From a virus: 28,220 bases of DNA. The DNA lies in IMG/VR virus record IMGVR_UViG_3300009431_000106, positions 1 to 28,220 of that record; one strand, written 5' to 3'. The position numbers and the translations under genes were made by a program. Shown one piece after another: positions 216-21,246 of the stretch (position 1 is its first letter; each line of letters begins with the position of its first letter). The notes under the pieces are model-generated. The model saw only the letters and a program-made list of their open reading frames with translations. It made no database searches and was not told where the DNA came from.

Positions 216-386
216 ATTTACACGACAAAGGAGGTCGCTGACTTTTTGAAGGTTTCGCTAATAACAGTTAAACGGTATATTGCTAGCAATAAGATTGCAT
301 CTATTAAGATTGGTGGCATAAGAAGAATTACGGGTGATGAGTTAATAAAAATATATGAAAAAAACAGACATAAAGAAGTTAGATAA
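216..386 (+). CDS. Excisionase/MerR-like helix-turn-helix protein, non-canonical start
   Basis: From TAC 219 to TAA 384-386 the frame encodes a compact HTH of the excisionase/HTH_17 type. TTKEVADFLKVSLITVKRYI matches the usual pattern T..EVA.FL.VS..TV.R.I, and the wing IKIGGIRRITGDEL matches the usual IRIGGRYRI..DEL. Proteins of this family bind DNA as small regulators or recombination directionality factors. The oddity is the start: an in-frame TAA lies at 204-206, and no ATG, GTG or TTG occurs before the HTH begins. ATT at 216 is the best-placed codon and would give a normal family N-terminus. A TTG at 246 has a good SD-like sequence (AAGGAGGT, 228-235) but would delete the first helix. The 3' end overlaps the HNH gene by 32 nt. 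The fold is fairly sure; expression and start are not. Confidence 0.6.
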   Translation: MYTTKEVADFLKVSLITVKRYIASNKIASIKIGGIRRITGDELIKIYEKNRHKEVR

Positions 387-723
387 GTTAGTAGCAAAAA
401 TGTGCAAAGAAGAAGCAAAGTTTCAATGTGAATTATGTGGTAAGAGTGGCGATGAATGTCAGCTACACCCTCATCATTATATAGGGCGTCGCAACAGGGC
501 TTTACGATGGTATTTGCCAAATTTAATAGTTTTATGTGCATCACATCATACAATGGGATTATGGTCAGCTCATCAAAATCCAGAATGGTTTAGAGGGGAA
601 ATGTTAAACAGGAGGGGTAAAGAATGGTTAAAAGACATAACACAAAAAGCTAGATTACAGTTCCGTGGCACATATCAAGAAGTTTTAGGTTATTTAGAGG
701 GGGGTGATTATTATGCTAGTTAG
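355..723 (+). CDS. HNH endonuclease, packaging-associated or NinG-like
   Basis: A 122-aa basic protein with a zinc-knuckle HNH fold. CxxC is at residues 25-28 (CELC), the paired histidines HPHHYIGRR at 38-46, N56 in LPNLIVLC, and a second ligand pair C61/H64 with H65. The ordered C-C, H-H, N, C-H-H layout is typical of HNH (His-Me finger) nucleases that use one divalent metal and cut DNA. In many phages an HNH gene sits just before the terminase genes and helps cut the packaging substrate; this gene lies about 1.2 kb upstream of the small terminase. A NinG/Rap-type recombination nuclease is an alternative because of the RxxR region and the spacing. ATG 355 is preceded by an A/T stretch with no SD. 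The 3' end overlaps the next gene by 11 nt. Confidence 0.75.
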   Translation: MKKTDIKKLDKLVAKMCKEEAKFQCELCGKSGDECQLHPHHYIGRRNRALRWYLPNLIVLCASHHTMGLWSAHQNPEWFRGEMLNRRGKEWLKDITQKARLQFRGTYQEVLGYLEGGDYYAS

Positions 724-988
724 ACCCACTAAAAAAAGGTTAAAAAATTTATTATATAAAATTGATAAACACAAGCTAAGTGTGTTTCGTAGTAATAGGC
801 GACACATATTTTTATATGGTTACAGTCATGTAAGAAACAACAATGCTTATTTAAAAGGGTTATACAACAAGGCAGACAAGGAAGCATTTAGGTTAGTCAG
901 GTATTATAGGGCTAAAGAACAAAAGAAAAAGAATTGTGAAATCAAAGATTCTGTGGATAACTATATTAAGCATTGTAAAAAACGCTAA
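713..988 (+). CDS. Small highly basic protein, unknown function
   Basis: The frame can begin at GTG 704, but ATG 713 is preferred because GGGGGGTGAT lies 5-12 nt upstream, one of the few SD-like sequences here. The 91-aa product is rich in Lys, Arg and Tyr throughout (for example TKKRLKNLLYKIDKH and YYRAKEQKKKN), with no membrane segment and no clear motif. High basicity suggests nucleic-acid binding, but this is inference. It overlaps the end of the HNH gene, so the two are probably co-translated. It is the last gene before the 989-1274 control region. Confidence 0.6.
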   Translation: MLVRPTKKRLKNLLYKIDKHKLSVFRSNRRHIFLYGYSHVRNNNAYLKGLYNKADKEAFRLVRYYRAKEQKKKNCEIKDSVDNYIKHCKKR

Positions 989-1010: not shown

Positions 1011-1039
1011 TTGTGTTTTTATTAAAAATAAGCTATAAT
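1011..1039 (+). promoter_or_regulatory. Sigma70-type promoter for the late operon or leader RNA
   Basis: A perfect -10 hexamer TATAAT lies at 1034-1039. It is preceded by TTGTGT at 1011-1016 with the ideal 17-nt spacer. The -35 matches the consensus only in TTG, so the promoter may need an activator or be moderate. Transcription would start near 1046, just before a palindrome, a leader ORF and a terminator. No comparably good promoter was seen elsewhere in the window, so this could drive the long collinear late operon. Confidence 0.6.
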
Positions 1040-1053
1040 AAAGTTAATTAAAC

Positions 1054-1074
1054 AAGGAGGTGTATGACATCCTT
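1054..1074 (+). promoter_or_regulatory. Imperfect palindrome enclosing a strong SD: operator or SD-sequestering hairpin
   Basis: AAGGA (1054-1058) pairs with TCCTT (1070-1074). A G/A mismatch follows, then GT (1060-1061) pairs with AC (1067-1068), leaving a 5-nt loop that contains the ATG at 1064. In RNA this hides the near-perfect SD AAGGAGGTG. In DNA it is a symmetric site a few bases after the predicted transcription start, where a repressor could bind. Both readings are inference. Confidence 0.4.
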
Positions 1075-1102
1075 AAATCAATTTAGTAATTGGCTAATGT
1101 AA
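1064..1102 (+). CDS. Possible 12-aa leader peptide
   Basis: ATG 1064 opens a 12-codon frame (MTSLNQFSNWLM) ending at TAA 1100-1102. It directly follows AAGGAGGTG, the best Shine-Dalgarno match in the window, though the 3-nt gap from GGAGG to ATG is shorter than usual. Its last codons and stop lie inside the left arm and loop of the following terminator, as in attenuator leaders. There is no run of one amino acid that would point to amino-acid control. It may be a real leader peptide or a chance frame. Confidence 0.35.
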   Translation: MTSLNQFSNWLM

Positions 1103-1122
1103 TTTTTGCATTAGTTTTTTTT
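1094..1122 (+). terminator. Intrinsic terminator or attenuator hairpin
   Basis: CTAATG (1094-1099) pairs perfectly with CATTAG (1109-1114) around a 9-nt loop, followed at once by eight T residues (1115-1122). The stem is short and AT-rich, but the T tract is strong. It lies about 55-75 nt after the predicted transcription start and before the late genes. It may therefore act as an attenuator, or end a short RNA from the same promoter. The T tract is also the left arm of the long helix of the next element. Confidence 0.6.
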
Positions 1123-1260
1123 GGTAGCAATTAGACAAAGAGGACAAGTAATATACAACAAAAACCATTTCTTTAGTCAGTGTTACATCTGGTTGCGACT
1201 GGATGTGGACATAGCAGGTATTAAGGTGAGGGCTTTTAGTTTAGTTGCTACCAAAGAAAA
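1115..1260 (+). ncRNA. Candidate structured RNA with a 28-position closing helix
   Basis: Positions 1115-1142 pair with 1233-1260 in 27 of 28 positions; only A1137/A1238 fails and four pairs are G-U. The core TTGGTAGCAA (1121-1130) against TTGCTACCAA (1245-1254) is perfect. Inside, 1183-1193 pairs with 1198-1208 (11 bp with G-U pairs) around a UGCG tetraloop of the UNCG type. CTTTAG (1171-1176) can pair with TTAAGG (1221-1226), enclosing that hairpin. No good ORF fills the element. It ends 14 nt before the start of the 1275 gene, so it is either a 5' leader of the late mRNA or a separate RNA. Possible roles are an RNase III processing site, translation control, or a packaging-related RNA near the terminase genes. 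A miniature inverted-repeat element is another reading. No known RNA family is recognised. Confidence 0.55.
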
Positions 1261-1274
1261 TTAACTTAAAAAGT

Positions 1275-1571
1275 ATGTCAAAAAGATTAACAAAAAAAGA
1301 GCAAGACGAATTAACACAAATTGTAAAGTTTGAGCAAGTGCAAGCACAAAAAGTAGTAGAAGCACAAACAATGCAGTTTTTTGTTACACAGTATAAGAAC
1401 AATTGGTTAAACAACAAATTAAAAGAATTAGGGTTAGATTCAAACAAACAATATAAATTAGGTGATGACGGTGAGTTTATTTTACAAAAAGAAGACCCAT
1501 CAAAAAACATAGCTGAACAAATAGCTAAGGTAGGTGAAGTCAAAAAGAAAAGTCCTAAGAAAAAAAGCTAA
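1275..1571 (+). CDS. Small charged protein preceding the terminase genes, unknown
   Basis: The frame extends back to TTG 1245, but that start would lie in the right arm of the long helix; ATG 1275 is preferred. The 98-aa product is mainly predicted helix (MSKRLTKKEQDELTQIVKFEQ...), contains a short GDDGEFILQ turn-strand region near residue 62, and ends in KKKSPKKKS. No family is recognised. Its place just before the small terminase suggests a packaging or regulatory accessory role, but this is positional inference. No SD is visible. Its stop region carries the right copy of the 19-nt direct repeat. Confidence 0.6.
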   Translation: MSKRLTKKEQDELTQIVKFEQVQAQKVVEAQTMQFFVTQYKNNWLNNKLKELGLDSNKQYKLGDDGEFILQKEDPSKNIAEQIAKVGEVKKKSPKKKS

Positions 1572-1591: not shown

Positions 1592-2059
1592 ATGCCTGAT
1601 GCAACACAAAAACAAAAAAAGTTAATACAATTGCTATTGGCGAATATTGGGAACACAAAATCTACTAAAACAGGGTATGAGTTAATGAAAGAAGCAGGAT
1701 ATTCTGAATCAATGTGTAAGAACCCTAAAATGGCAATTGACAGTGATGCAGTTAAAGAGGGTGTAAAAGATTTTGTTAAGCAATTAGACGACAAAAGGAG
1801 AATGGCTATCACATATTTAACAGAAGCTAAGTTAGGTAAATCAAAAGCAAGAGACATTGCACAGATAGTGGATATACTTACGAAAAATCATCAATTGTTG
1901 AGCGGTGGAGATACTGAAAAGGTCAGCGTTTATAATTGGAACAAATATGAAGACAGTGACAATATACAGCCCAAGAAAGTGGACACAGAAGTTACACGAG
2001 GGCAAGGAGAGGTGGAAAGTGATAGTCGCTCACAGAAGATCGGGGAAAACATTTGCTAG
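1592..2059 (+). CDS. terS: Terminase small subunit
   Basis: This 155-aa protein carries the usual N-terminal HTH-like segment of phage small terminases. TKTGYELMKEAGYSESMCKNPKMA (about residues 24-47) resembles the common pattern of MREAGYS...A.NP. It is followed by a helical oligomerisation region and a C-terminal tail (GGDTEKVSVYNWNKYEDSDN) of the kind that contacts the large subunit. The protein recognises the packaging site on concatemeric DNA and regulates the motor. It overlaps the large terminase gene by 113 nt when that gene starts at 1947, a longer overlap than usual. The last 35 or so residues are therefore constrained by two frames. ATG 1592 is preceded by an A/T context (cagtATATG) without SD. 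Confidence 0.75.
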   Translation: MPDATQKQKKLIQLLLANIGNTKSTKTGYELMKEAGYSESMCKNPKMAIDSDAVKEGVKDFVKQLDDKRRMAITYLTEAKLGKSKARDIAQIVDILTKNHQLLSGGDTEKVSVYNWNKYEDSDNIQPKKVDTEVTRGQGEVESDSRSQKIGENIC

Positions 2060-5287: not shown

Positions 5288-5692
5288 ATGATAGATTGGT
5301 TAATACATAAATTGGGGGGTATAACTTTAAAAAGATTAAATGAAGCTGATTGGGAAAACGAATTAGATGTTGTTGATTTGGTGCGTGAACGATTAGAGGG
5401 AGTTAAATTAGATAATGTTTTGGGTAATTTGAATGAAGCGGAGACCAAAGAATACATCACAGAGATGGCTCGTGTAGCTGATAACAAATGGATGAAATTA
5501 TTGTTAAACGATTTAAAAGTTAAACAGATAATGTTCACAGTTAAGCAGGCACGGAATATGGAAGAGGTCAGTTTTGGTAGGGCTACAATCAACGGAATTT
5601 CGTTAATAGAGGAAGAATTAGTTAGAGTTAAGGCATTAGATGAAGAGTCAAAGAAACCAAAAGGAGAGTTTGATGAACATGCAATTATATGA
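5288..5692 (+). CDS. Unknown 134-aa protein between portal and scaffold
   Basis: It starts one base after the portal stop region (TAATATG, no SD) and ends with TGA overlapping the next ATG. The protein is acidic and mainly helical (for example EADWENELDVVDLVRERLEG and TISLIEEELVRVKALDEES-like segments), with a Lys/Pro/acidic tail. No catalytic motif or membrane segment is visible. The location between portal and scaffold suggests a head-assembly or internal head protein. No family is recognised. Confidence 0.75.
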   Translation: MIDWLIHKLGGITLKRLNEADWENELDVVDLVRERLEGVKLDNVLGNLNEAETKEYITEMARVADNKWMKLLLNDLKVKQIMFTVKQARNMEEVSFGRATINGISLIEEELVRVKALDEESKKPKGEFDEHAII

Positions 5693-5826
5693 CAACAGAC
5701 AGATTAGTTAAGGTGAGAGAGAATTATTTTTACAGTCCATTTTTAAAAGTGTATTATGAGAGTTATCGTGACAAGGAGACGGGTAATTGGAAAGTAAGAA
5801 AAAAGAAGAGTATGCCGCCCAAGTGA
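5689..5826 (+). CDS. Small basic protein of 45 aa, possibly extended by frameshift
   Basis: ATG 5689 overlaps the previous stop in ATGA. The product contains YFYSPFLKVYYESYRDKETG and ends KKKSMPPK at TGA 5824-5826. It is rich in aromatics and Lys. The following 111 nt have no gene in this frame, but the +1 frame is open from 5798 up to a TGA that overlaps the next start codon. The gene may thus be longer than the ORF shows, by +1 shifting near CCG CCC AAG TGA or through a sequence error. No function is recognised. Confidence 0.5.
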   Translation: MTTDRLVKVRENYFYSPFLKVYYESYRDKETGNWKVRKKKSMPPK

Positions 5827-5941
5827 GTGTTCTTGTATTTCGGGTGCTAGGCATACGGCATTTGATTGCAAGAATACTCCTTTGGGTGTTCAATTTAGGG
5901 GTCATTATCCCGTTAGAGAGGCGGGTAGAACAAATATATGA
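5813..5941 (+). other. Open +1 frame with Cys/His ligands: possible frameshift extension, or a structured spacer
   Basis: Reading from TGC 5813 gives CRPSECSCISGARHTAFDCK and about 20 further residues, ending at TGA 5939-5941. That stop overlaps ATG 5938 as ATGA, the junction style used by several real genes here. The frame has no ATG, GTG or TTG start of its own. The CxC, H and C residues could form a zinc site. Against this, another frame (TTG 5787 to TAA 5963) is also open across the gap. The DNA can also pair ATGCCG (5812-5817) with CGGCAT (5854-5859), so a structured spacer is an alternative. Confidence 0.3.
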
Positions 5942-6363
5942 CCAAATTAGACGAAGCGTTTAAAGAAGCGCAAAAAGAAGTTAATGAGAAGGAACTTAAA
6001 CAATTAAAAGGGTATTTTAAACAAGTGTTGACAGCAATTGAGGTTAAAAAGAAACAAAAGGAGAGGGTTGAGGAAGAGTTGCGGATACTGAAATTAGATT
6101 TAGAGGATTTAAAAGCTGGTAAGTTTGACAAGATTAAGGAAAGACAAAAGAAATCAGAGGTAGCCAGACAAGCAAGCCCATTAAATCTGCCTTGCGTTAC
6201 ACATGCAATAGGGTTAGTGACGGACACTGATCCTAATTGGTATAAAGGGACATATCGGGTTACTATTTGTAATACAAATGATATTACAGATGCTAGTATG
6301 CTCTATTGTTCTAGTAGTAACAAAAGTGGTTTTACGGAGCCGAACAAAACATTTTACTTTTAA
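5938..6363 (+). CDS. Coiled-coil protein with Cys-containing C-terminal domain, unknown
   Basis: Residues 1-75 form a continuous charged heptad-like helix (EAFKEAQKEVNEKELKQLKG, then KKKQKERVEEEL). After a linker RQASPLNLP comes a non-helical part of about 55 residues with three Cys, ending in NKTFYF. The linker shares the ASPLN motif and its DNA with the scaffold candidate downstream. Position and coiled coil suggest an assembly or minor head protein. No SD is seen; the start context is ATATATG. No family is recognised. Confidence 0.65.
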   Translation: MTKLDEAFKEAQKEVNEKELKQLKGYFKQVLTAIEVKKKQKERVEEELRILKLDLEDLKAGKFDKIKERQKKSEVARQASPLNLPCVTHAIGLVTDTDPNWYKGTYRVTICNTNDITDASMLYCSSSNKSGFTEPNKTFYF

Positions 6364-13219: not shown

Positions 13220-13453
13220 ATGCCAGAAAAAAAACGAAAACCTGGACGTCCTAAAAAGGTTGATTCTAAACCAAAGGTTGACTCTAAGGAAGAACTCAAA
13301 GTAGAAGAACTTGAGGTACCCAAAACAGAGGAATCTAAGATAGCGGAACCTAAGGAAGAAAAGGTTGAATTAGCTCCAAATGAGCGAAAAGTTATTATTA
13401 ATGGTAAAGAGTATATTGAAGTAAACACAGGACTTACTACTTACCTTAAATAA
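13220..13453 (+). CDS. Small AT-hook-like charged protein
   Basis: A 77-aa protein starting MPEKKRKPGRPKK, whose KPGRPKK matches the AT-hook core (GRP flanked by Lys/Arg) that binds the minor groove of AT-rich DNA. It is followed by an extended Lys/Glu-rich linker (VDSKPKVDSKEELKVEELEV) and a short folded end, ERKVIINGKEYIEVNTGL. It sits between two large virion genes, so it may be a DNA-associated virion component or a linker protein; the Lys/Glu region is disordered in character. The AT-hook is a short motif and could be fortuitous. ATG is in an AATCTATATG context without SD. Confidence 0.6.
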   Translation: MPEKKRKPGRPKKVDSKPKVDSKEELKVEELEVPKTEESKIAEPKEEKVELAPNERKVIINGKEYIEVNTGLTTYLK

Positions 13454-13468
13454 TGTCTTCATTTTGAG

Positions 13469-13504
13469 AGAGGGGGGGCAAGTGGAAACACTTACTCTCT
13501 CTCT
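13469..13504 (+). promoter_or_regulatory. Strong GNRA-capped hairpin before the 13524 gene
   Basis: AAGTG (13480-13484) pairs with CACTT (13489-13493) around a GAAA tetraloop. After one C/A mismatch, positions 13469-13478 pair with 13495-13504 in ten further pairs, three of them G-U. The G-rich 5' arm faces a CTCTCT 3' arm. It ends one base before an in-frame ATG (13506) and 19 nt before ATG 13524, so it may block the first start, protect the mRNA or bind a protein. Confidence 0.5.
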
Positions 13505-13523
13505 AATGGGGACAATTAAAAAT

Positions 13524-15347
13524 ATGTTATTCGGCGGATATGACGCACAATACAATATTTCCAATCGGTTACCGCTTCCAGTTGATATTTTAGCTGACAC
13601 AGCGTTTGTGAATGATATTTCAGGAGAATCTGTGGCTTTATATTATTGGAATAGTAATGTATTAACTGCAGACGCAGGACAAGCAGCTGGCACAGTTGTT
13701 ATAGCAAAGTTTAAATACACAGGTATTTTAGATGCTTTGGGCGGAATGATTGGCAATGAGGGCGACACATCTATCAGTTGGACAACAGGCACAGTTTTAA
13801 CAAGTGAACAAAGATGTGATTATTCAGCGATTGAAAATCCTAAGAATGCCACATTAGAACAAATAGCAACTCAATTAACAGCTAATTATTCTAATGGTGA
13901 ATATTGTGTGGATTACAGAAATGGAATTTTGTATGGTTTAAAAGCCACTATTGGAACAGGTGACACAGCAGCTTATAAAGTGCTTTCACAAACTACGGGT
14001 GGAGGAACCTCAATTACAGCTAGTCAAGATTTGGAAAAGATTGTTAATGTTACAATTAGTGCAAAGAATGCGGCTTTTGATGAGCCACCATTAGGAATGG
14101 GTGGAGAATATGAGTTACTTGGTTCTTTATCTACTGATGCTGGAACAGCGGGTGACAAAACACCCCTCAAGACAAGTGCAAAAGGTGTTATTTATACTAA
14201 TTTAATTAACATCGCTGGAACTAAAGAGGCAGTATTGTTAGAGGGAGCGACTCATGGTTCAGGAGATGCTGGTGTTATGTCGTTAGTAGTTAGAAATGAT
14301 ACTTTGGCTGATTTGTCTGGTGGTGACGGTAAGTATAGTGGCATACAGGTTAATGCAAAAGGAAGTGTTTATGCAGACCTTTCAAGTGTGCTTGGTTCGG
14401 ACATGAGTGCAACTAATCCTGTTATTGCAGAATTGACTGATGGTTCAGCTGTCATTTCAACTAGCAATCCATTAACAGTTAATTTGAGTGACGGCACAAA
14501 CGCAATGGTAATGAACGCTGCTTTTGCTGAAGAATTTACTGAAGCAAACAATTCTCTTAATGCATCTGCAATGATTTACGGTTTTGATTCAGAAGCAACT
14601 GCAACACATAAAATGCGTGCGGTTCAAGTCGCAGTAGACAATGCTGGAATTAGTGCCACTCCAAACGTATTAATTGGTGGAGGTATTTATAAATCAGCTT
14701 TAGACACTTATGGAGACAATGATGCTGTGCCATTTCATTTTGATGTTAATGGCAGGTTAATGACAACTTCAGAACTAATAGATTATGCAGATGACAGCAA
14801 TTTTACGGTTGCTTCAGATAAAGTTATTGCGCTGGGCGGTTACTATAGCGCAGCTGGTGACAATGTAGACGATACAGATATTGGAGTTTTGGCAATGACT
14901 ATTAACCGTCATTTAATGGTTCGGTCAGATTCTTATGATACAAGCACAACGGCTGATAAAAGTTATGAAATAGCTCCATTGAACACAAAACACACTGAAG
15001 AAACAATTGCAACAGCTACTAGTCAAGGCGATGGAACAACTTATTATTACTGGGATATGGATGGGTATAGATATTTCTCTTTGCAAATTGAAAACACTGA
15101 TGGAGCAGCAGGTGATAATACTTACACCTTAGAAGCTACTAATCAGGACGATGGAACAGCAGCAGCTTCTTGCACATACCAAGATGTAACAAATCAATGG
15201 ACAGGCGCAGCCAATTATACGGCAAGTGCTTTTCCAGAGGTTGATACACCAACAGCAGCTAAATATGTTCGTATAAAGGTTGTGCGCGCAAACGATGGTG
15301 CTAATACTGATGGTGCTTGGACATTATATTTAAAGAAAATGTTTTAA
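13524..15347 (+). CDS. Large beta-rich virion protein, unknown
   Basis: The frame extends to TTG 13464, with ATG at 13506 and 13524. ATG 13524 is preferred because AAAAATATG matches the start context of this phage and lies clear of the preceding hairpin; 13506 is nearly as likely. About 607 aa, Thr/Ala/Gly/Asp-rich and mostly beta, with few motifs. A C-terminal domain of about 110 residues (TIATATSQGDGTTYYYWDMDGYRYFSLQIEN to the end) looks like a beta-sandwich of the kind found in phage fibre or head-fibre proteins. Internal segments such as LSDGTNAMVMNAAFAEEF occur in repeats of phage baseplate or fibre proteins. It is most likely a structural, possibly receptor-contacting protein. Confidence 0.65.
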   Translation: MLFGGYDAQYNISNRLPLPVDILADTAFVNDISGESVALYYWNSNVLTADAGQAAGTVVIAKFKYTGILDALGGMIGNEGDTSISWTTGTVLTSEQRCDYSAIENPKNATLEQIATQLTANYSNGEYCVDYRNGILYGLKATIGTGDTAAYKVLSQTTGGGTSITASQDLEKIVNVTISAKNAAFDEPPLGMGGEYELLGSLSTDAGTAGDKTPLKTSAKGVIYTNLINIAGTKEAVLLEGATHGSGDAGVMSLVVRNDTLADLSGGDGKYSGIQVNAKGSVYADLSSVLGSDMSATNPVIAELTDGSAVISTSNPLTVNLSDGTNAMVMNAAFAEEFTEANNSLNASAMIYGFDSEATATHKMRAVQVAVDNAGISATPNVLIGGGIYKSALDTYGDNDAVPFHFDVNGRLMTTSELIDYADDSNFTVASDKVIALGGYYSAAGDNVDDTDIGVLAMTINRHLMVRSDSYDTSTTADKSYEIAPLNTKHTEETIATATSQGDGTTYYYWDMDGYRYFSLQIENTDGAAGDNTYTLEATNQDDGTAAASCTYQDVTNQWTGAANYTASAFPEVDTPTAAKYVRIKVVRANDGANTDGAWTLYLKKMF

Positions 15348-20188: not shown

Positions 20189-20216
20189 TTCCAATGTCAT
20201 TGCAGGGAGTTTTTTA

Positions 20217-20243
20217 GCTTGTTTTCTTCACAAAAAAACAAGC
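20217..20243 (+). promoter_or_regulatory. 9-bp hairpin upstream of the peptidase gene
   Basis: GCTTGTTTT (20217-20225) pairs with AAAACAAGC (20235-20243) around a 9-nt A-rich loop. It lies 10 nt before ATG 20254 and has no T tract on its 3' side, so it is unlikely to be a terminator. It may set translation of the peptidase. Confidence 0.4.
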
Positions 20244-20253
20244 ATAAAACTAT

Positions 20254-21246
20254 ATGCAAAATCATGGTTTGATTCTTGATGACAAAGTAAATATAAAAGA
20301 TTGGAGATTTGGTGATGTTACAGGAATTATGTCAGGAGTGCGTGAACCTGACAGGAATTGGACAGAATATTTGCCATTTTTGGAAATACAGCGCAGCAAA
20401 TATTTTGATAGTATGTGTTGCACTAATTATTCATTTTTAAATACTGTTGAAACATTGTTGGGATGTATGCAGATGAATAATGAAATATCCAAAAAGAACA
20501 TGAAATGGTTAAAAGAAAGTTCAATTTTTAATAAAGGAAAATATGATTGTAGCGATAGATGGTCGGCTATTTCGTCTGGAACAACAAATAAAGGAAATTT
20601 AATGGTTAATCCAGTTAAAGCAGCACATAAATATGGGTTAGTGTCAGAAACAGAGTTTGGGTGGGATAAAGAAGAGGTTACAAAATTTAAAGATTATATT
20701 AGTGTATCTCCATTAAAGAAAAAAGCTTTAGCTGAAAAGGCAAACGAATGGAATGATAGGTTTAAGATAAATTATGAATGGGTTATCCCAACAGAAAAAG
20801 TAATCAGGGAAGCATTACTTTATAGTCCATTACAAGTGTGTGGATATGCTTGGGATAAACCCAAAAAAAATGTTTATCAGAGAACAGAAAAACAAGCAAA
20901 TCATGCTTTCATGATTTATAAAGTAGATGATTATTTCTATATTTATGATCATTATACTAAAGACAAAAAAAAGTTAGCATTAAATTATAAATTTTGGGCA
21001 GTATTAAAATATAATATAGAAGAAATTAAATCTATGCCAATTGTAACAATACCTGATAACACATTAGTTCAGGAGGTAGAAGAAAGTGGAGCTTTCGGAT
21101 TAGTGCTTAATAATAAGATTATGGTAGGTGATTTAGCCAAACTTTTAGCAACATATTTAATGCGCAATAGTAATGAAACAATGGCTCTTAAAAAAGAAGT
21201 GTGGGATTCATTCCCTAAAATTAACTTAAGAAAGGAAAACGTATGA
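20254..21246 (+). CDS. Papain-like cysteine peptidase, possible endolysin
   Basis: A 330-aa protein. The likely nucleophile is in DSMCCTNYSFLNTVE (C55 or C56, followed by a helix, as in papain CWAF/CVxxS). The histidine is in the strand ANHAFMIYKVDD (H217), followed by YIYDHY (D232) as the third residue. The order Cys-His-Asp/Asn and spacing fit the C1/papain fold. In this cassette, before a two-helix holin and after an XhlA-like protein, it may cut peptide crosslinks of the host wall; alternatively it is a structural-protein protease. The C-terminal 75 residues (from VTIPDNTLVQEVEESGAF) resemble a binding or anchoring part. The stop overlaps the holin start (ATGA). Confidence 0.7.
   Translation: MQNHGLILDDKVNIKDWRFGDVTGIMSGVREPDRNWTEYLPFLEIQRSKYFDSMCCTNYSFLNTVETLLGCMQMNNEISKKNMKWLKESSIFNKGKYDCSDRWSAISSGTTNKGNLMVNPVKAAHKYGLVSETEFGWDKEEVTKFKDYISVSPLKKKALAEKANEWNDRFKINYEWVIPTEKVIREALLYSPLQVCGYAWDKPKKNVYQRTEKQANHAFMIYKVDDYFYIYDHYTKDKKKLALNYKFWAVLKYNIEEIKSMPIVTIPDNTLVQEVEESGAFGLVLNNKIMVGDLAKLLATYLMRNSNETMALKKEVWDSFPKINLRKENV

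Follow-up and report, generated by a model that had tools for sequence, protein, structure and literature searches.

A plus-strand-specific structured RNA at the early/late gene boundary of an uncultured tailed phage

The 146 bases at positions 1115–1260 of an uncultured virus of bacteria form a real, plus-strand-specific RNA structure, which sits at the boundary between early and late genes. The sequence analysed, hereafter the window, is a 28,220-base IMG/VR record of this one virus. The element is absent from Rfam and no described family fits it. We favour, with somewhat less than even confidence, a leader of the late operon whose closing helix serves RNase III-type processing or stabilisation.

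Genomic setting and fold of the element

Over its first 6.2 kb the window matches exactly the terminal part of a 39.5-kb IMG/VR contig of the same phage (L003, IMGVR_UViG_3300009320_000054). TerL is ~48% identical to that of HTVC010P-type pelagiphages. The portal protein has matches confined to uncultured IMG/VR contigs (27–52%) and none among the phages of the annotated collection. The phage is a member of a mosaic, uncultured group of tailed phages. Elsewhere in the 39.5-kb contig (L098, 2248–5117) lie adjoining ParB-like, radical-SAM-like and glycosyltransferase-like genes, named by sequence impression only, that are perhaps a DNA-modification set.

The gene order around the element is NinG-like HNH, gp2, element, gp3, TerS, TerL and portal, and most gene starts in the window are devoid of a Shine-Dalgarno sequence:

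355–723, plus strand: NinG/Rap-like HNH endonuclease (PHROG 5034, 2e-11), closing the presumed early region
704–988, plus strand: gp2, a small basic protein, directly 5' of the putative promoter
1275–1571, plus strand: gp3 (98 aa), first gene 3' of the element, with no Shine-Dalgarno sequence and no family found
1592–2059, plus strand: small protein (155 aa) at the terminase small-subunit (TerS) position, assigned by that position; 28–29% to a gene of L130
1905–3206, plus strand: terminase large subunit, TerL (Pfam Terminase_6N, 1.1e-12)

The element itself comprises the following parts:

1115–1142, plus strand: left arm of the closing helix, pairing with 1233–1260
1143–1164, plus strand: left side of the internal loop, A-rich and mostly unpaired
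1165–1231, plus strand: inner domain, in which short helices (CC, UU, CUUUAGU/AUUAAGG) surround the UGCG-loop hairpin
1183–1208, plus strand: inner hairpin of 10–11 bp with a UGCG (UNCG-type) loop at 1194–1197 and core pair probabilities of 0.85–1.0
1233–1260, plus strand: right arm of the closing helix; the gp3 ATG follows 14 nt later

On recount, the two arms pair in 27 of 28 positions in a single ungapped register, exactly as the original prediction had it, with 23 Watson-Crick pairs, four G-U pairs and one A-A mismatch; the mean pairing probability is 0.96 in the context 1044–1275. The minimum free energy (MFE) is -45.4 kcal/mol compared with -27.5 ± 3.5 for shuffled sequences (z = -5.15), and none of 200 shuffles equalled it. 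The reverse strand reaches -23.9 (z = -1.62), and the region 1040–1290 gives z = -5.17; overall, folding z-scores are -5 to -6 on the plus strand and -1.6 on the minus strand. The closing helix is also the top long helix of the window, scoring 64.4 (51.2 when its 28 columns alone are counted) against 41.2 for the next. The best random scores were 32.8 (400 shuffles of this region) and 43.6 (60 first-order Markov sequences of 28 kb). The helix had been called exceptional in the window, which holds for long-range pairing but not for folding energy, since 5801–5950 folds more deeply and 13401–13560 similarly (z = -5.9). The proposed inner hairpin does carry a UNCG-type loop, but its length is 10–11 bp rather than a flat 11, and the helix enclosing it has 7 bp in the MFE structure, not 6.

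Other stretches of the window are noted in their own right. Within 5689–5939, a strong hairpin (5816–5837/5867–5888) contains the end, at 5826, of a 45-codon frame; a stretch that looks coding in a different frame comes next (SCISGARHTAFDCKNTPLGVQFRGHYPVREAGRTNI). Such an arrangement might arise by recoding or bypass, from a split gene or through an error; there was no match in relatives, and tblastn of both halves returned nothing. The strong hairpin at 13401–13560 has GAGAGAGGGGGGG / CTCTCTCTCT around a gap between 13453 and 13464. At 20211–20249, directly 5' of a gene at 20254, a hairpin has two 18-nt arms that are 83% complementary, the left T-rich and the right A-rich; it is itself preceded by a hairpin and a T run.

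The deviations from Watson-Crick pairing favour a plus-strand RNA over a DNA palindrome or miniature inverted-repeat element. The helix has four G-U columns, no A-C column and one A-A column, and with its outward extension there are eight G-U against one A-C; a naive binomial gives ~0.003 for at least four of five mismatches being G-U. Because the mismatches are mostly G-U on the plus strand, it is RNA pairing that has been kept, not DNA symmetry. Together, the fold statistics, strand asymmetry and G-U bias bear out the original proposal of a structured RNA. A DNA-level palindrome, whether a cos or pac site, an origin, an operator or a miniature inverted repeat, would account for the 82% Watson-Crick symmetry, and some relatives carry true palindromes at this place (L101 3256–3497 folds nearly equally on both strands). 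In the window, by contrast, both fold and mismatches are strand-asymmetric. The arms are single-copy there and missing from the 13 kb read at the opposite end of the 39.5-kb contig, the flanks (GCATTAG / TTAACTT) show no exact duplication, and the arm pattern TGGTAGCAA-N85-115-TTGCTACCA found only itself and chance-level matches in IMG/VR. We thus regard a DNA-level role as quite unlikely, and the inverted-repeat idea raised at the outset is not borne out.

The earlier statement that the element contains no open reading frame is correct for ATG starts; a 47-codon frame beginning with TTG at 1121 and stopping at 1264 nevertheless crosses the whole element. An open plus-strand frame occurs likewise in 117 of 2000 shuffles (6%), and the frame has no PHROG match and no counterpart in relatives, where tblastn was empty.

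Upstream signals and possible roles

Three candidate signals lie 5' of the helix:

1011–1039, plus strand: putative sigma-70-type promoter TTGTGT-17-TATAAT, read from the sequence, with TATAAT at 1034–1039
1051–1074, plus strand: AAGGAGGTGTATGACATCCTT, an extended Shine-Dalgarno-like sequence and ATG within a small hairpin (from sequence and fold)
1093–1122, plus strand: terminator-like hairpin (1093–1115; 10 bp, AU-rich, -8.0 kcal/mol) followed by a U8 tract

The putative promoter has a perfect -10 and a poor -35 (3/6), was not reported by the scanner and appears weak on its own; its one source of backing is the presence of stronger promoters just 5' of the structured stretch in L101, L102 and L110. 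The small hairpin carries AAGGAGGTG-ATG, and its ATG opens a 12-codon frame (MTSLNQFSNWLM); motifs like AAGGAGGTGTATGACATCCTT are missing at most other listed gene starts. The terminator-like hairpin did not pass the scanner either. Its U8 tract is the longest T run of the plus strand and doubles as the start of the left arm, confirming that the two features overlap as first described. The further suggestion that the helix sequesters this tract, as in an attenuator, fails: polymerase reaches the right arm only ~110 nt beyond the U tract, too late for the helix to influence termination of the RNA that carries it, and hairpin and helix coexist in the MFE structure and the predicted ensemble.

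Around this structure and its position we infer a promoter, a terminator, a processing step and an effect on the late genes. From the promoter at 1011–1039 a short RNA would be made, terminating for the most part at the U8 tract, whereas read-through transcripts, whether begun there or in the early region, would form the 28-column helix. An RNase III-type enzyme, specific for double strands, could then cut the early or leader part from the late mRNA, giving the latter a defined 5' end in front of gp3, and the inner UGCG hairpin may nucleate folding of the enclosed domain. For an RNase III-type site, a helix of at least about two turns is expected on the coding-strand transcript; the predicted helix has 27 pairs (~2.5 turns), a shape compatible with such a site. 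A phage precedent exists in T7, in which RNase III cleavage at R1.1 matures and protects mRNA (PMC8708148). Support for the leader comes from the strong, plus-strand-only fold, its position between the NinG-like HNH/gp2 genes and the terminase operon, and strong folds in the same gap of relatives; counting against it are a promoter weak by consensus, an AU-rich terminator hairpin and the lack of any homologue found.

The main rival of a processed leader, which we consider possible but doubtful, is an antitermination leader of the late operon resembling lambda pR'-tR'. Transcripts would start at 1011–1039, meet a terminator at 1093–1122 and read through only with a phage protein, gp2 being placed like Q, or with a put-like RNA. 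In lambdoid phages the order is nin-Q-pR'-tR', and here a NinG-like HNH gene, a small basic protein, a putative promoter, a putative early terminator, the structure and terminase follow one another in much the same way. Arguing otherwise, comparison with PHROG (no match) and Pfam (nothing significant) did not place gp2 in a Q family, and its AlphaFold model is of low confidence (pLDDT 59), although it may be a diverged Q analogue. Moreover, the promoter is weak, and the structure stands 3' of the terminator, whereas put RNA acts ahead of terminators, as two stem-loops close to the promoter. Acting on RNA polymerase at the late promoter, Q itself confers resistance to the terminator that follows (PMC6606751).

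Alternatively, the 28-column helix might frame a mature RNA (1143–1232) that is excised, accumulates during infection and acts in trans. A long stem closing around an inner domain is as expected of precursor stems, and the UGCG hairpin fits too, but conservation of the inner domain was not found and one side is long, A-rich and unpaired, so a small RNA seems unlikely. A role in gp3 translation is very unlikely. The structure, or an extension pairing 1097–1114 with 1261–1278 in 15 of 18 columns and covering the gp3 ATG, would hide or free the gp3 start; in the ensemble, however, the terminator hairpin outcompetes the extension (most of its pairs 0.93–0.97), the gp3 start region is mostly unpaired, and Shine-Dalgarno sequences are missing from most genes anyway.

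If the leader reading is true, the element offers a tractable control point for late genes in phages lacking any close relative in culture, and the strong folds that recur before terminases of this portal family would be new ground in the search for phage RNAs. Should it be a processing stem and no more, it is an unusual but ordinary leader.

Structured gaps before the terminase genes of related phages

Homologues were sought at several levels. Against 4227 Rfam families, the element had no match at the gathering threshold and its best sub-threshold matches were unrelated, in agreement with the original impression of no known family. For the window and its relatives together, gathering and permissive thresholds yielded nothing, weak matches such as manA and SCARNA14 being at chance level. 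A single-sequence covariance model found no homologue over 135 sources (~135 loci) and 10 further records; since a model built from one sequence has little reach, this is absence of evidence. Single and profile queries with TerL, portal, gp3 and TerS in IMG/VR retrieved only the same phage and distant mosaics. L118 (genome_contigs) was rejected as a relative, as the match is short and the contig otherwise full of bacterial genes, and strong helices in L056, L057, L060, L030, L049 and L083 proved not to be the same thing. Of the two grounds for refutation first named, one is absent, the fold being more stable than shuffles, and the other is present, as no recognisable copy turned up in the collections covered.

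The gap before terminase is nevertheless strongly folded in L110 (z = -5.9), L101, L102, L103, L119/L133, L125, L128, L137, L140, L141, L012 and Rhodoferax phage P26218. Across 19 loci, 23 of 172 windows in the 1.2 kb before terminase have z ≤ -3 compared with 72 of 1518 elsewhere, a threefold enrichment (Fisher p = 4e-5) in which coding content is not controlled, more of the pre-terminase DNA is noncoding and the loci are partly related. Individual z-scores from small samples are rough, as L100 gives -12.9 (16 shuffles, one window) but -3.3 and -1.7 under other window choices.

The closest parallel in design is L110, with a TerL 65% identical and the same HNH-gene-gap order. At 2329–2449 lie a hairpin and a T7 run, inside which a 17-column helix begins, and L122 (3679–3853) repeats the hairpin/T-run/helix design. 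Their helix scores of 36–39 compare with a maximum of 28.4 among 24 random sequences of 28 kb; one other match, scoring 38, is on the L143 minus strand. The late genes of L110 begin 1.7 kb further on, so its structure is not a direct leader. Near-consensus promoters immediately precede the structure in L101 (TTGACA-17-TACAAT), L102 (TTGACA-17-TATTAT) and L110 (TTGACA-15-TATAAT).

Covariation between L101 and L102 is weak, their best consensus containing a single compensatory pair. The structure peculiar to L119 and L133 shows one clear compensatory change (A-U to C-G) from one contig to the other. Structures in L101, L102, L119/L133, L137 and L141 differ from the design in the window. Because sequences and shapes vary between phages, the claim is one of common position and design, not homology. 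It is a long shot that these RNAs, some with pseudoknots, make up a fast-evolving class between late promoter and terminase genes that keeps position and role but not sequence, with the window element as one member; its role could be, for example, protein-free processive antitermination or packaging control.

A packaging RNA acting with terminase in the manner of pRNA had been suggested by position alone. The element does adjoin TerS and TerL, and this mosaic group often has strong folds ahead of its terminases. Yet the structures there are mutually unrelated even among phages with 65–75% identical TerL, pelagiphages (~48% identical TerL) have weaker structure in the gap, and the TerL of the window is an ordinary Terminase_6N, all of which makes this role highly improbable.

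Several gaps have features of their own. L133 (1680–2120) and L119 (150–590) each have ~430 nt densely packed with multi-domain RNA structure, 3' of a TATAAT promoter and small HNH gene. Crossing helices in L137 (3385–3482), GUACAAGGAC/GUCCUUGUAC across AAGGCUGUAUU..CACCUAG, suggest a pre-terminase pseudoknot, as do UAACUACCACG/CGUGGUAGUUA across a 16-bp helix in L141 (3364–3468), where a long minus-strand frame overlaps. In Rhodoferax phage P26218 (L183), a cultured and hence experimentally accessible phage, the 512-nt gap before the terminase genes (2434–2945) is highly folded (z = -6.9) with a repeated CTGCTACAACTGCTACTT.

Comparison with known phage RNAs

The element resembles phi29 prohead RNA in length and in nearness to packaging genes, a likeness of position only; it differs in having no pRNA-like junction in its MFE structure, no Rfam match, an ordinary TerL type and no conservation among relatives. 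With the HK022 put RNAs it shares the character of a structured phage leader RNA, but no put-type pair of stem-loops was recognised in the window. The likeness to the lambdoid pR'-tR'/Q leader lies in a putative promoter, a putative early terminator and late genes behind NinG-like and small-protein genes. By contrast, the window has no recognised Q homologue, its structure lies behind the terminator, and its late genes begin with gp3-TerS rather than lysis genes. RNase III sites of T7-like and lambda mRNAs (R1.1; the N leader) are likewise long imperfect helices between early and later phage genes. Whereas those contain a small internal bubble, the helix in the window encloses ~90 nt of further structure and starts in the terminator U tract; by analogy, it would work like these known leader helices.
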